Shown here: piece after piece, positions 6,871 to 51,350 of the stretch
How the letters are laid out: every line of letters starts with the position of its first letter
Position numbering within the stretch: the stretch's first letter is position 1
Source: Deltaproteobacteria bacterium
Lineage (GTDB): Bacteria; Desulfobacterota; Desulfuromonadia; Desulfuromonadales; Geopsychrobacteraceae
Reading direction: 5' to 3'
Length of the DNA: 64,000 nucleotides
NCBI GenBank assembly: GCA_024280335.1
Contig: JAJRQI010000012.1
Location: 62,001-126,000, forward strand
Notes under the pieces: model-generated
Database searches by the model: none
What the model saw: only the letters and a program-made list of their open reading frames with translations
What the model was told of the DNA's origin: nothing
Position numbers and translations under genes: made by a program

Positions 6871-8727
6871 ATGAGAACGACCCGGTTACTTCTCGCTGTA
6901 AGTTTGCTGTTTCTGCTGTTTGGCTCTCAGGCCCTTGCTAGCAGTCATCTGATCTCAGGGCCGGAAACCTGTCTCGAGTGTCACGATGATGTGATTTCTG
7001 CAGAAGAGTTTTCAGCTTCTGTGCATGGCATGAACGGCTGCGTCGCCTGCCACGTAGAACTGACGGACGTCGAACTTCACATGGAGGGCGAGTTAATGCC
7101 CGAACCTGTGAGGTGTGTCCGCTGTCACAAGAAAGAGACTGCGGAGCACTATTCGAGCGTACACAAGCTGAATGAGATCGATTGTGCCTCCTGCCACAGC
7201 AGCATCCACACGCAGATGGCCTGGAAGGGCGACAAGCGGATCGCGACCGACAAGTGTGCCGAATGCCACGATGAAGCTTATGAGATCTATCATCAATCGG
7301 TCCACGGCAAAGCGATCCAGGCGGGCAATATGGATTCAGCCGCTTGCCTTGATTGCCACAATCTCCACGAAATCAATGAGATCGGTGACCCGGCAGATCA
7401 TGATACGCGTGCTTTTCATAGCGATGTCTGCCAGAAGTGCCACGCCGATGCAGAGCTGATGGCCAAGAACGGTGTCTACAATATCGCCGTTGAAACCTAT
7501 CTGACCAGCTATCACGGTAAAAACTACGCGCTCGGCTTCCCTGAGCTGGTAGCCGGCTGTGCCGATTGCCACACCTCCCATTCGATTTTGCCGCATACCG
7601 ATCCCAAATCGAGCCTGCATCCGGACAACCTGGTTGCCACCTGTGCCCAATGCCACGAGAACTCATCGGCACAGTTCATCAAGTATTATGCTCACGGCAA
7701 GATGACCGACCGGGAAAACTACCCGATTCTTTACTACACCTACGTCAGCATGACCGGCCTGCTGCTGGGAACCTTTGCGATCTTCTGGATCCATACGCTG
7801 ATGTGGATGTTCCGCGGTTTCGTCGAGAACCGCGAAAAGAAGGCCGCACTGATCGCCGGCACCCATCATGCGATCCCTGACGCTCATAAAATTTATCGCC
7901 GTTTCAGTAAATTGCATATTGTCCTGCACCTGCTGGTGATCACCAGTTTCCTGCTGTTGTCACTGACCGGGATTCCATTGAAATTTGCCGAACAGGAATG
8001 GGCCGTGGTGCTGATGAATTTCTACGGCGGAGCTCCGGTTGCAGCATTTGTGCACCGAATCGGTGCGGTGATCACCTTTGTCTACTTCTCAGCAGCCCTG
8101 GCGATGAGTGCCAAATTCCTCTTCTACCGACTGCAGTCGCCGGCAGATTTTTTCCAGCGGCTGTTCGGTCCCGAGTCACTCTGTCCCAACCTGCGTGACG
8201 TCAGAGATGCCACCGCCATGGTTCGCTGGTTCCTGTTCCTCGGCCCCAAACCGAATTTCGATCGCTGGACCTATTGGGAAAAGTTCGACTTTCTCGCCGT
8301 CTTCTGGGGCATGTTTGCGATCGGCGGGTCAGGTCTGATGCTCTGGTTCCCGGAGATTTTCGGTGCCTTTCTGCCCGGTTGGGTTTTCAATGTGGCGACA
8401 ATCATCCATTCGGATGAGGCGCTGTTGGCAACCGGCTTCATCTTCACTGTTCATTTCTTCAATACCCATGGCCGGCCGGAGAAGTTCCCGATGGACTTTG
8501 TTATTTTTAACGGTGAGCTGCCGAAAGAAGAGTTTATCGAAGAGCGTGGTGACCAGTGGAAGCGTTACCAGGAAGAAGGAATCCTGGAAGACTATGTCAA
8601 AGAGAAGCCGAGCGGCGTTGCCTACGATTTCTTTATCAAGGGCTTCGGTTTCTTTGCCGTCTTCACCGGCATTGCCCTGCTGTTCCTGATGGTGTACGCG
8701 TTCACTGCCGGCGGACATCACCTCTAA
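6871..8727 (+). CDS. cbcL: CbcL-like fusion: nine-heme c-type cytochrome plus membrane cytochrome b
   Basis: This 618-residue protein joins a periplasmic cytochrome to a membrane quinol-oxidising domain. A signal peptide covers residues 1-23. Nine CXXCH motifs start at C34, C57, C82, C105, C129, C159, C187, C230 and C258. A membrane part follows (helices near 287-312, 345-365, 380-400, 440-465 and the C-terminus) with histidines placed as in HydC/FdnI-type diheme b subunits (for example KLHIVLHLL, FVHRIGAV, IHSDEAL, VHFF). Nine c-hemes followed by a b domain is the architecture of Geobacter CbcL, needed for respiration with low-potential Fe(III) acceptors. The ATG at 6871 follows AAAGGAGATG; an upstream in-frame start at 6823 lacks this. 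A terminator follows. Confidence 0.8.
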   Translation: MRTTRLLLAVSLLFLLFGSQALASSHLISGPETCLECHDDVISAEEFSASVHGMNGCVACHVELTDVELHMEGELMPEPVRCVRCHKKETAEHYSSVHKLNEIDCASCHSSIHTQMAWKGDKRIATDKCAECHDEAYEIYHQSVHGKAIQAGNMDSAACLDCHNLHEINEIGDPADHDTRAFHSDVCQKCHADAELMAKNGVYNIAVETYLTSYHGKNYALGFPELVAGCADCHTSHSILPHTDPKSSLHPDNLVATCAQCHENSSAQFIKYYAHGKMTDRENYPILYYTYVSMTGLLLGTFAIFWIHTLMWMFRGFVENREKKAALIAGTHHAIPDAHKIYRRFSKLHIVLHLLVITSFLLLSLTGIPLKFAEQEWAVVLMNFYGGAPVAAFVHRIGAVITFVYFSAALAMSAKFLFYRLQSPADFFQRLFGPESLCPNLRDVRDATAMVRWFLFLGPKPNFDRWTYWEKFDFLAVFWGMFAIGGSGLMLWFPEIFGAFLPGWVFNVATIIHSDEALLATGFIFTVHFFNTHGRPEKFPMDFVIFNGELPKEEFIEERGDQWKRYQEEGILEDYVKEKPSGVAYDFFIKGFGFFAVFTGIALLFLMVYAFTAGGHHL

Positions 8728-36499: not shown

Positions 36500-36603
36500 A
36501 TGGCCTCGCGCTGCCCATTTCAAGGGTGTTTGGCGCCAGGATGGCGTCAGCAAGCCCCAGGGATGGGTTCATGCGTCCCTGGGAATGGGCAGCGCGAGGC
36601 CAT
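36500..36603. repeat. 104-bp structured element with 20-bp perfect inverted ends
   Basis: Positions 36500-36519 and 36584-36603 are exact reverse complements over 20 bases (ATGGCCTCGCGCTGCCCATT). Inside, CCCAGGGA (36556-36563) pairs with TCCCTGGG (36576-36583), stacked directly on the outer stem, and TGGCGCCA occurs at about 36531. It sits between convergent genes with no T-tract. It may be a bidirectional terminator, a small palindromic mobile repeat, or a structured RNA. Confidence 0.75.
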
Positions 36604-47285: not shown

Positions 47286-48098
47286 ATGCGTTTACTACTA
47301 CCGCTTTTCACGCTACTGCTGCTTACCGGATGCATGCCGCCAAGTCAGAATCAGCTGCGGATGGAGATGGACCTCGAAGAGATGAAGCGCCGCTTGGGCC
47401 AATTAGAGATTCAACAGGCGGAGACAAAATCAAGCGGCTCCGCAAGCGGCGACAGCCAACTGCGACAGGTTGCGGAACTGATGGCCGGGTTGGACAACCT
47501 GCGGGTCGAGTTCCAGTCGATCAACGGCCGGCTGGATGACATCGGACGAGAAAATCAACAGTTGGTCGACGAAGTACAGTTGATCAAAGAGGATATCGGC
47601 TTGCAGCTCGGTTCCTTGAGCGGGCGGATCGATCAACTTGACCAGCGCACTGACACCCTGGCCGAAAAGGCCGCAGCCAGAGCCGTCCCGGCGTCACCAG
47701 CCCCGCCGGAAGCGGATAAGCCGGCCCTGACACCCGAGCAAACCTATCAGCAGGCCCTCGACTTGATCCGTAAAGAAAGCCGCTTCGTCGAAGGTCGTGA
47801 GCAGTTGGAACAGTTTGTCAAAACCTATCCACACCACGATCTGGTGGTCAACGCCCTCTACTGGAGCGGTGAAGCACTTTACGGTGAAAAAAAGTATGAG
47901 CTGGCTATTTTGCAGCTGCAGGATGTCATCAGCAAGTACGCTGACCACCCCAAGGCGGCTGCCGCCATGTTCAAACAGGCGCTGGCCTTCAACGCCCTGG
48001 GCGATCCGCAGAATGCCAGAACCACCATGCAAAAGCTGATTGAAGAATATCCGGGTGCTGATCAGGTTGAAAACGCGAAAAAGTTTCTGCAACAGTAG
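47286..48098 (+). CDS. cpoB: CpoB/YbgF-type Tol-Pal coordinator
   Basis: The 270-residue protein has a lipoprotein signal (LLLLTGC), where E. coli CpoB has a normal signal peptide. A coiled coil follows (residues about 25-125, with LEEMKRRLGQLEIQQ and repeated heptads), then a linker and three TPR repeats (TPEQTYQQALDLIRKES, VVNALYWSGEALYGEKKYELAI, AAAMFKQALAFNALGDPQNA). It coordinates peptidoglycan synthesis with outer-membrane constriction. CAGGAGGAGTCTG precedes the start. Confidence 0.9.
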   Translation: MRLLLPLFTLLLLTGCMPPSQNQLRMEMDLEEMKRRLGQLEIQQAETKSSGSASGDSQLRQVAELMAGLDNLRVEFQSINGRLDDIGRENQQLVDEVQLIKEDIGLQLGSLSGRIDQLDQRTDTLAEKAAARAVPASPAPPEADKPALTPEQTYQQALDLIRKESRFVEGREQLEQFVKTYPHHDLVVNALYWSGEALYGEKKYELAILQLQDVISKYADHPKAAAAMFKQALAFNALGDPQNARTTMQKLIEEYPGADQVENAKKFLQQ

Positions 48099-48151: not shown

Positions 48152-48320
48152 GTCGATAAGCGGCCATCCATATTTTCCGGATGGTCACTAGATAGATGGA
48201 CTTGCGTAGAGGCGATCCGCTGGATCGCCCTTATCATTTGGCTCTGTTAGCGAGTTTAGTTGATTTCTACAAAATGATGTTAATGACTGTGATTTTCTCA
48301 AAACTTACTATTTTTGAAAC

Positions 48321-48349
48321 AAAAAAGCGGAGCCATTGTTGGCCCCGCT
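48321..48349 (-). terminator. terminator of the PEP-CTERM gene
   Basis: On the reverse strand AGCGGGGCC-AACAAT-GGCTCCGCT forms a hairpin with one mismatch, followed by TTTTTGTTTC. Confidence 0.8.
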
Positions 48350-48374
48350 TCGATGTATCGGAATTCTTTGAGTG

Positions 48375-48920
48375 CTATGCTTTCTTACGCTTCCGACCGT
48401 ACCAGCCAAGGCCTAAAAGGCCACTGCCGAGAAGAAGAATGGTGGAGGGTTCGGGGACGGGTGCTGGTGCTGTATCAACCCTAAAGGTGGAGGAAAAGAG
48501 ATCACCAGGGTTTGTATTAGTCATCGGAACGTCAATCTGAATAGAGTCTGCGTTAAAAAATGTGGCGAATGACCCCTGGTCAGGAAAATCATTGACAAGT
48601 TCAGTCAGACCAGTAATTTCATCAGGCAAGTTAAAGTCAAAGAAAAAGAAACTGAGTGCTCCAACTGTAATATTTGGCCATTGTGATGTGTTCTCGTAAC
48701 TCAAGGTAACTGTATCGGTATCTGCCGAAAAATCAGCTAGCATGGTCAGATTGGTAAAGACTGCAGAAAATTCAACTTCCGCACTGACAGTGGCCACCGT
48801 ACTAGACCAGTTGTAGCTAGTGTTGGAAATTGTTCCCTGGATGGTGTCGCCGATAACAATGGCATTTGCGCTGGTGTTTGCCAGCATAAGAATGATTACA
48901 AGAAATAAGAGTTTTTTCAT
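48375..48920 (-). CDS. PEP-CTERM sorting-signal protein
   Basis: The 181-residue exported protein has a signal peptide (MKKLLFLVIILMLANTSANA) and a C-terminal PEP-CTERM signal: VPEPSTILLLGSGLLGLGWYGRKRKKA, that is VPEP, a helix and a basic tail. Such proteins are processed by exosortase, usually in bacteria making an exopolysaccharide. No exosortase gene is in the window. The mature part is Thr/Ser/Asn-rich and has no recognised domain. GAGGAGGGTGAA precedes the ATG. The gene lies inside inverted repeats. Confidence 0.9.
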   Translation of the reverse strand: MKKLLFLVIILMLANTSANAIVIGDTIQGTISNTSYNWSSTVATVSAEVEFSAVFTNLTMLADFSADTDTVTLSYENTSQWPNITVGALSFFFFDFNLPDEITGLTELVNDFPDQGSFATFFNADSIQIDVPMTNTNPGDLFSSTFRVDTAPAPVPEPSTILLLGSGLLGLGWYGRKRKKA

Positions 48921-49352
48921 TTCACCCTCCTCTAAAATTCAATATGTTTTGTGTCGGTTGGGCAGACTCTCATTATATGCAATCCCCGTGCCCCTTCTTA
49001 GCTGGCTGAAATTATTAAGATTTATATCTTTGTTTGCTGAAGCGTCCTCTTTTGTAAAAAAATCCGACTATTTTCCAGGAAGTTTAAATGGTTTCCTTTT
49101 AATGTTCAATCAACACATTTGCACGGGCCCCAGCACACTTCGACTGGCCTTTTTCTCGAAACTCAGAACATGTGAAGGGCTGATCGTCTCAAAACTATGG
49201 AATTCACCCAAGTGCCGTGAACCCTAAGTTCTCCTGTCTCAAAAAATCGTGTCAAAAGTCATTCTCACATATCCTAAGGACTTTTGAGAGGACATGCTCC
49301 CGTGCTGGGGAGAATTGTCAAATCAACTTAATTCGCTAACAGAGCCTTAGCT
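48921..49352. other. 432-bp non-coding right part of the inverted-repeat segment
   Basis: AT-rich sequence between the PEP-CTERM start and the right inverted repeat. A forward frame from 48820 to 49227 overlaps the PEP-CTERM gene antisense and is not convincing. On the reverse strand a short frame begins MSSQKSLGYVRMTFDTIF near 49294 and stops after 18 codons; it may be the remnant of a lost gene. Confidence 0.45.
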
Positions 49353-51089
49353 TCAACTATCCAGATCCAGGCGGCGAAAGGCGGCAAGCACATCGTTTTG
49401 GCTGAGGATGCCGAGCAGTTTTTGCGGCTGTTGCGGATCGATGACCGGAAAATAACTGATATTGCGTTTTTTCTGCAAAGTCTTCAACGCCTCGCGGAGC
49501 GGGGTGTCCGGTGGTATCGAATGATGGACCGAAGAGACCAGATCTCGCGCCACTAACAGGTCGGAGAGTGAGCTATCGAATAACAGGTTGCGGATTTCCG
49601 TATAATTGATGATGCCGACAAAGTTATGCGCGTCATCAACCACCGGAAAACGATCGTAGCGGCTATGAGCGATCACCCGCAACAGTTCCTGAAAATGCAC
49701 CCCATGATGGATGGTTTCGACGTTGTGACGCATGACATGCCGCACCAGAATGTCCCCGGGATCCTCCATATTGTGTCCGGCCGGCAGACCCAGGTTGGTC
49801 CTGAAGTGATTGGCAACACTATGCAGCCCCTCCATCGCGCCCTGCGGGGCACGTTTGCGCAGTACCGTGAGGATCGGGACTTCGCCCGCCTGTACCAATC
49901 CATGGCGCACCGCCAATGGCCCGATCAGCTCAAAGATCACCACCGAGCCAAGCACCACCGTCTGAATCATAGCGCCGCCTTCCGGCCAGAGATTGGCCAG
50001 GGTTGCCGCCAGACCGATCGCCATTCCGGCCTGAGCCAGCAGGGTCATACCGATCCAGCTGCGCTCTCTGCCGCCAAACTGCCCTAGTCGCGCGCCCAGC
50101 CAGCCGCCAAACAGCTTCCCGACCGTCCGGGCCAGAACATAGGCAATTCCGAGCAGGCCGATATGGCTGAGGGTTTCGATATGCAAATTCGCTCCGGCCA
50201 AGACAAAGAAGATCACATAGAGCGGGTAATCAATTTCGTTGAGCGATTTGACCAAGCGGTGCCAGCGCGGCGAACTGTTGGCCAGGACAATCCCCAACGC
50301 CATACAGCTTAACAAGGGTTCCAGCCCCAACGCCCGGCTGACGGCAACCACCAGCGTTACACCGCCAAGCAGCAGAATCTTGTGCTCGCTGGCCAGATCC
50401 AGCCGCTGTGCCCAGACCGACATGCCGAAGCCGAACAGGCCGCCGAGCAGCAACGGCAAAACAATCTGATAGGCGACATCGCTGAGGTTCCCGTCGGGGA
50501 CAACCAGCAACTGAGCGGCAATGGTAAAGGCAAACACCGAGATCAGGTTGTTCAGGCCAACCAGTGTCAACAGGCAGCTGGTCACCGGTCCCTCGGCTTC
50601 GTACTCGCGGATCACCATCAAGGTTGCCGCCGGGGCCGTAGCAATGCCGATAATGCCGCTAAAGGTACCGAACAAGACCGAGGTCTGCAACAGACTCAGT
50701 GAACCGACCAGGGTGTGCAGCACGAGAAAATTTACCGAAAAGACCGCCTAGCCGACCAGCAGCCCGGTGGTCAGCGCTTCGCAGATGGAAAAAATAAAGA
50801 TCCGCTGTTTCCAGCGACGCAGATTTTTGGTACAGAGTCGGCCACCGATATTCATCAGGATCAACGCCAGAGCGACATCGGTAATCAGTCGTAACTCATT
50901 TAATGCATAGCGTGAAACCAGCTGCGGCAATGCAAAAATATCGGCAAATGACGGACCGATCAGCAGACCGGCCAGCAGATATCCCGTGACTCTGGGAATC
51001 CGGCAAAACACCGCCAATCGACCGCCTAGCAGAGCACCGATGAAAATAATCGCGAGAGCGACAATGATTTGAAAATAGTTATCTGGCAT
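49353..51089 (-). pseudogene. CPA2 cation/proton antiporter with CBS domains, interrupted by TAG
   Basis: Read through, the gene encodes 578 residues: a Kef/CPA2 antiporter (FIGALLGGRLAVFCRIPRVTGYLLAGLLIGPS, then about a dozen helices) and a C-terminal pair of CBS domains (VRHVMRHNVETIHHGVHFQELLRVI, LVARDLVSSVHHSIPPDTPLREAL). Codon 114 is TAG (50748-50750), in frame, in the middle of a helix (TTGLLVG-stop-AVFSVNFL). A second start near 50723 could make only the C-terminal part. The likely start is ATG 51089 (MPDNYFQII). No frameshift is present. Either a pseudogene or a base-call error. Confidence 0.8.
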
Positions 51090-51350
51090 TTTGCTAGAGA
51101 CTCTTGCCGCTGAAGAAAAATGAGCTGCCACGACCTGAAAACCGGTCGTGCCGATAACCGGTGGATCCCATCAGGAGCAGAAACGGACCGCCCGCTTAAG
51201 AAGACCCATTATCCAGTGCAACGTCGGTCTTTTCAACCGTAAACCGATTTAACGGCGACAGAGCGGATGGTGTTTGTGAATTACAGCAGAATTTGCAGAA
51301 GCTGAGGAGCAAAGGAAAGAGTTAGTGGAGCAAGAACATCACCTTCCGAA

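Follow-up and report, generated by a model that had tools for sequence, protein, structure and literature searches.

The locus between cpoB and a Na+/H+ antiporter gene raised the question of whether a gene for a putative surface protein reached its present place inside a mobile cassette that lacks a transposase of its own. All coordinates below are positions in the window, i.e., the whole stretch of 64,000 nt that was analysed. A first-pass annotation of this DNA had described 27-bp inverted ends with 25 matches around an AT-rich segment. The ends were found exactly at the positions given there: the two arms were 27 nt each and matched at 25 of 27 positions (93% complementary). The GC content was approximately 39-47% within the cassette vs 52-64% for most of the flanking segments, in agreement with the AT-rich character that had been described. 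The structural features of the segment were as follows.

48240..49346, no strand assigned: whole cassette, 1107 bp, inserted between cpoB and the antiporter gene
48240..48266, plus strand: left terminal inverted repeat GGCTCTGTTAGCGAGTTTAGTTGATTT
49320..49346, minus strand: right terminal inverted repeat GGCTCTGTTAGCGAATTAAGTTGATTT
49247..49292, no strand assigned: subterminal inverted repeat
48296..48306, plus strand: subterminal TCTCAAAACTT, adjoining the left end

To judge the arms against chance, base-shuffled windows were used. Among six of them, no inverted pair with at least 25 of 27 matches was found within 3 kb, compared with two in the real window (the cassette pair and a hairpin near 36500), and the joint 27-mer pattern, which occurred twice in the window, was absent from 100 shuffles. 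As no comparable pair was present in the six shuffled windows, the arms are not accounted for by chance. The second 27-bp inverted pair of the window, with at least 25 matches, formed a hairpin at 36500-36603.

The surroundings of the segment were then compared with those in relatives. The neighbouring features were as follows.

47286..48098, plus strand: cpoB (ybgF), left neighbour
48211..48229, plus strand: terminator-like hairpin directly outside the left end
49353..50723, minus strand: right neighbour, a CBS-domain Na+/H+ antiporter whose ORF stops 6 bp short of the cassette

All 44 family genomes searched, the own genome included, contained CpoB. Of the 30 loci that were fetched, 29 came from relatives, and 23 of these covered both cpoB and the antiporter gene. 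When the site between these genes was inspected, as had been proposed in the first-pass annotation, the gap between the aligned protein ends did not exceed 110 bp in 18 relatives and measured 154, 170, 242, 558 and 647 bp in the remaining five of the 23. Here, the gap was about 1.25 kb (1,260 bp between the aligned protein ends). Ends within three mismatches were present in none of the 23 genomes used for the gap comparison, and one looser end was detected in G036 on another contig. Judging from this comparison of sequences, the cassette segment is an insertion between cpoB and the antiporter gene. A base-exact empty site was out of reach because the relatives were too diverged; CpoB identity among those fetched was 54-69%. 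A target-site duplication was not found at the cassette, whose flanks agreed at 3 of 8 bases.

Several further observations were made around this site. Among the longer gaps were those of L062 (G029, 170 bp), L069 (G016, 647 bp) and L076 (G002, 558 bp), and the L062 gap contained an apparent inverted repeat, as judged by eye. The antiporter gene itself (49353-51131, minus strand) was interrupted by an in-frame stop near 50748, which divided it into two same-frame ORFs. Copies of the hairpin region at 48205-48230, outside the left end, were present on contigs C12 and C13 of this genome (26 bp, 96%). At about 51340, a short tandem repeat (NATQR repeated in translation) was seen beside an apparent ATP synthase epsilon gene, which was recognised by eye.

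The cargo of the cassette was a single gene, the features of which were as follows.

48375..48920, minus strand: cargo gene, encoding a 181-aa PEP-CTERM protein whose N-terminus is hydrophobic as judged by eye
48390..48461, minus strand: codons of the PEP-CTERM sorting motif
48925..48932, minus strand: ribosome binding site GAGGAGGG, 4 nt upstream of the ATG, read directly from the sequence
48324..48351, minus strand: intrinsic terminator of the cargo gene, a 12-pair stem with a T tail

The product matched the PEP-CTERM family PF07589 with 33.5 bits (cut-off 20.7) and TIGR02595 with 28.4 (cut-off 16). Hence, the earlier description of one surface-protein gene with its own ribosome binding site and terminator was corroborated in each of its parts. 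The C-terminal 27 residues differed at one position from those of a resident protein on contig C13 of the same genome. Residues 1-152 had no homologue at E 0.001 among 135 other genomes of the order and none in viral contigs, and no similarity to plasmids was found for either the whole protein or the cassette DNA. Structure prediction yielded a mean pLDDT of 42. A search of six loci against Rfam gave no match above the gathering score; the four sub-threshold matches in the window stretch (E 0.045 to 0.87) were taken as chance.

It had also been noted in the first-pass annotation that the segment carried no transposase, and this was confirmed. None of the three other listed ORFs of at least 50 aa that overlapped the cassette had a Pfam match at E 0.01, and no part of the cassette was matched when five IS1595 transposase sequences were used as tblastn queries.

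Upstream of the cargo gene, two motifs of a predicted control region were located.

48978..48993, minus strand: sigma-54-type -24/-12 element GGGCACGGGGATTGCA (PEP-CTERM box motif 2), 57 nt before the ATG
49053..49069, minus strand: 17-mer ending in TTTACA, separated by 58 nt from the downstream motif 2 (motif 1 of the PEP-CTERM box, a predicted site for PrsR)

Read in the sense of the gene, the order was thus the TTTACA-ending 17-mer, 58 nt, GGGCACGGGGATTGCA, 57 nt and the ATG. According to the available part of Haft et al. 2006 (PMC1569441), proteobacterial PEP-CTERM genes are preceded by a motif 1 that has TTTACA at its end, then by a spacer of 62.8 nt (SD 10.6) and a sigma-54 motif that lies 71 nt (SD 38.5) from the start codon, and PrsR is the predicted activator of genes with this box. 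The spacings of 58 and 57 nt in the cassette fit these published values; for motif 1, the comparison with the published motif was made on TTTACA and the spacing alone. By motif order and spacing, the box of the cargo gene is predicted to belong to the PrsR/sigma-54 regulon pattern. The strict joint box pattern occurred once in the 64 kb, at the cassette; a looser pattern matched the cassette and one more window site, and the sigma-54 pattern alone had one further occurrence in the window. No sigma-70 promoter was found by a scan upstream of the cargo gene. For a PEP-CTERM gene of Aquincola, RpoN dependence has been demonstrated, as reported in the portion of PMC9850573 that was available.

The genome was also found to encode the machinery that such a gene would need. 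PrsK (TIGR02916, 492.6; cut-off 300) and PrsR (TIGR02915, 626.6; cut-off 502.6) were present, one exosortase was matched on contig C34 (TIGR02602, 220.4 bits; cut-off 105.55), and EpsI was likewise above its NCBIfam cut-off. The genes for PrsR, PrsK, EpsI and the exosortase were clustered on contig C34. Considering that the predicted box, PrsK, PrsR and one exosortase occur in the same genome, it may be concluded that the host could express and sort the cargo as soon as it arrived. Seven PEP-CTERM matches were obtained in the genome, the cassette cargo counted. The box was detected at one of the seven, the cassette cargo, and at none of the other six within the DNA covered, which in the case of L124 did not include the gene start.

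The ends were then sought in other DNA. In the own genome, there was one end pair and a single copy of the cassette. A search for the 14-bp core elsewhere in this genome, with two mismatches allowed, gave 21 matches compared with 41 for the reversed control; because the control gave more, the matches outside the window pair were regarded as noise. Within the family, an end was found in 4 of 44 genomes, the own included (reversed control, 0/44): six ends with up to three mismatches were carried by three further genomes, which belong to a single other genus. The numbers were 7 of 136 genomes in the order (control, 0) and, with a looser 27-bp pattern, 16 of 277 in the class (reversed control, 1/277), the own genome being included in both. 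The strict pattern was present at six loci of the genome_contigs collection. Five of these were in Deltaproteobacteria/Desulfuromonadales MAGs at positions that match ends in G023, G024, G047 and G120, and the sixth was a new contig titled Neptunomonas (L112), in which a gene for a DUF4410 lipoprotein adjoined a solo end. Therefore, when the search for ends elsewhere that had been suggested beforehand was performed, a recurring type was recovered from other genomes, with no identical copy of the window ends; the closest was that of L112, which matched the right end at 26 of 27 positions. Such recurrence, together with the reversed controls of 0/44 and 1/277 and the shuffled windows without a pair of 25/27, argues against a chance inverted repeat that flanks an ordinary resident gene; this possibility, in favour of which there is the single pair in the genome, can be considered practically negligible.

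Similarity between the ends extended inwards in some cases. A 32-nt stretch around 49247-49292 was 81% identical to subterminal DNA of the ends L045 and L127, and sequences resembling TCTCAAAACTT were found near the right end of the cassette as well as in the ends L036, L037 and L040. The 8 bases outside 29 non-window ends were 84% A+T, compared with 46% for the window. Most of the ends in relatives were solo, with no partner within the DNA covered. The DNA just inside the ends L035, L039 and L112 was alike over 45-54 bp (78% in two matching pairs); it was predicted to fold, had ATGCAGG in common and matched no Rfam family.

The association of these ends with transposase genes was studied next. 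At L046 (G120), an end with 23 of 27 matches to the left window end was followed by a decayed ISXO2-like transposase gene, the recognisable part of which began approximately 0.3 kb inside the end. The end at L116 (G057) had its first 14 bases in common with the window end (21/27 overall), and about 0.1 kb inside it lay a transposase gene that was split into two ORFs, contained the IS1595 zinc ribbon and had 41-43% identity to the transposase of L106. In L106 (G054), an uninterrupted ISXO2-like frame of 299 aa, cut by the contig end, abutted a GGCTCTATTCGCG end (17-18/27). Such ends were found at two of nine IS1595 loci in a first set, the other seven having other ends, and at three of five in a second set, two of the three being places already contained in the first. 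The majority of the IS1595 loci inspected thus lacked ends of this kind, which counts against the link. The L116 contig also carried a second similar end, 305 bp outside the IS1595 end with an HTH gene in between (L116:959-1317), and a nucleotidyltransferase gene beyond the transposase. The ISL3 family, considered because of a resemblance of its ends, was ruled out, as none of 21 ISL3 transposase loci of the family had such an end.

An intact IS bounded on either side by these 27-bp ends was not found, and L046 and L116 had one recognisable end each. The search for full IS elements that had been suggested in the first-pass annotation thus yielded some ends at IS1595 transposase genes. The own genome (draft, 72 contigs, 99.51% complete) gave no match to the transposase family PF12762. 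Because no ISXO2-like DDE transposase is contained in it, the cassette itself is not an IS1595 insertion sequence and is at most a derivative with the ends of one.

Duplications of 8 bp and passenger genes are typical of IS1595. Complete elements with such duplications were found at other loci. A 315-bp end pair in L044 was flanked by a perfect 8-bp duplication (8/8), and no transposase was found there. The same was true of the duplication around a 7,884-bp end pair in G059 (L147:6743-14626), and an end pair of about 6.85 kb in G023 (L036:750-7597) had an 8/8 duplication after a 1-nt shift of one end. In L147 and L036, no transposase was present among the ORFs examined, and tblastn matches were at chance level; a resolvase-type gene was located inside L036. 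A 184-bp element with similar ends was found at L136 (G164) in a T run, in which a duplication is uninformative. The cargo of L147 included a DMSP lyase, an FRG-domain protein matching PADLOC PDC-S15 (a candidate defence protein) and a CXXCH cytochrome, and that of L036 a CNNM protein, a rhodanese and a ferredoxin-type protein. Hence, the idea of the first-pass annotation that surface proteins are spread by a cassette with an exosortase substrate as its cargo was upheld with regard to the PEP-CTERM tail and the one host exosortase but not with regard to the spread: the genome contains one such cassette, residues 1-152 lack a homologue in the 135 other genomes of the order, and the genes carried by further elements of this end type are unrelated.

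In L147, repeated terminator-like boundary sequences separated several genes, and an internal relic of an end was located at 8420. The ftsK-truD gap was occupied by one gene set of approximately 6.85 kb in G023 (L036) and by another of approximately 16 kb in G024 (L040/L144). The two loci had one end in common, together with about 260 bp behind it that were 79% identical; L040 (G024) had kept this one end, and no end was recognised on its truD side. The ftsK-truD and L147 elements may be either cassettes that are exchanged or the product of an old hot spot for insertion. Single-gene units with their own terminators and the repeated boundary sequences between several genes of the 7.9-kb L147 would also be expected if the ends were sites for an integron-like, site-specific recombination system rather than for a transposase. 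However, the ends are inverted and not direct, 8-bp duplications were found at L044, L147 and L036, and IS1595-type transposase genes stand behind such ends, all of which makes an origin by site-specific recombination very improbable.

The window segment could, on the other hand, be an old composite relic, in which two solo ends or MITEs came to flank a PEP-CTERM gene by chance or a larger element collapsed, so that the unit never moved as such and is immobile now. The missing target duplication, the many solo ends in relatives and the lack of a PF12762 match in the own genome are in line with this explanation. Nevertheless, the entire segment is absent from the relatives compared, its ends (25/27) are closer to each other than those of the L044 or L147 pairs (23/27 each, as counted by eye), and the gene, the box and the terminator fit tightly between them. 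A relic of this kind is therefore regarded as rather unlikely.

Taken together, the data make it probable that the window segment is a non-autonomous, transposase-less mobile insertion cassette of the IS1595 type that would be moved in trans. The claim of a mobile cassette thus gained support from the insertion, the recurring ends and the complete elements with 8-bp duplications elsewhere, but not from the site itself, which has no duplication and is the only copy. As there is only a single copy, mobility in the own genome is putative. Neither of two outcomes that had been named beforehand as unfavourable, i.e., the gene being fixed in relatives without the ends or the ends having no other copy, was observed.

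An IS1595-family transposase acting in trans is proposed because the 27-bp ends are of the IS1595 type. Supplied from elsewhere, it would recognise these ends, cut the cassette from another replicon, the presumed source, and insert it behind the stop codon of the antiporter gene. The cassette would thereby deliver one gene with a predicted PrsR site, a sigma-54 promoter, a ribosome binding site and a terminator. The PrsK-PrsR pair of the host, together with sigma-54, might then switch the cargo gene on, and the protein, recognised by the host exosortase through its PEP-CTERM tail, would be expected to be sorted to the envelope.

Similar arrangements have been described as mobile insertion cassettes (MICs), in which a gene lies between two IS-type inverted repeats with no transposase; MIC231 of Bacillus cereus, mic-qnrD and mic-qnrS2 are examples given in the available part of PMC3913671, and MICs are also named in that of PMC3129680. 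The window element resembles the MICs of the IS231/qnrD type in having a gene between inverted repeats, no transposase and its own expression signals (PMC3913671, available in part). In contrast to them, its ends are of the IS1595 type, its cargo is a predicted exosortase substrate, and the copy has no target duplication, which is "usually observed" for MICs (PMC3913671, same part), nor was a cognate transposase found in the same genome. Because the target duplication and the cognate IS are missing, the element is called MIC-like, and full membership is not claimed.

The cassette is linked to the IS1595 family in that ends of this type precede some of the IS1595 transposase genes of relatives, but it lacks the transposase gene. 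It is non-autonomous with inverted ends, as MITEs are (compare the 184-bp element of G164), but unlike these, it carries a full gene with regulatory signals. Single-gene PEP-CTERM operons with a PrsR/sigma-54 box, as presented in the accessible portion of PMC1569441, have TTTACA, the spacer, the sigma-54 motif and the start codon at matching distances; in contrast to them, the unit in the window is enclosed by transposon-type ends. Because IS copies with passenger genes ("transporter IS") are already a recognised kind according to the available text of PMC3129680, which cites Siguier 2009, the element is not new in kind; what is new is its cargo together with the regulatory box. Literature searches that combined PEP-CTERM with transposons and inverted repeats, or exosortases with insertion sequences and horizontal transfer, brought up no description of a PEP-CTERM gene in such a cassette.

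A broader interpretation is conceivable, although it should be taken as tentative and somewhat doubtful: the ends may mark a class-wide system in Desulfuromonadia of exchangeable transposase-less cassettes, ranging from a 184-bp MITE through single-gene units to multi-gene arrays of 7.9 kb in which boundary sequences are repeated; these cassettes would be moved in trans by rare IS1595 transposases. Such a system would be a functional parallel to integron cassettes, and the window cassette would then represent a self-contained surface-protein module whose box and sorting tag would suit any host equipped with PrsK-PrsR and an exosortase.

The finding bears on how new PEP-CTERM substrates enter genomes. 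PEP-CTERM proteins are highly diverse and have little homology to known proteins, as stated in the part of PMC1569441 that was available. On the reading preferred here, that of a cassette moved in trans, a substrate would arrive as a single-gene cassette together with its control region and sorting tag, and the cargo could be functional immediately wherever PrsK-PrsR and an exosortase are already present. In addition, the ends offer a search handle for other transposase-less cassettes in sediment and metal-reducing bacteria; a DMSP lyase and a candidate defence protein are among the cargo at the loci seen.
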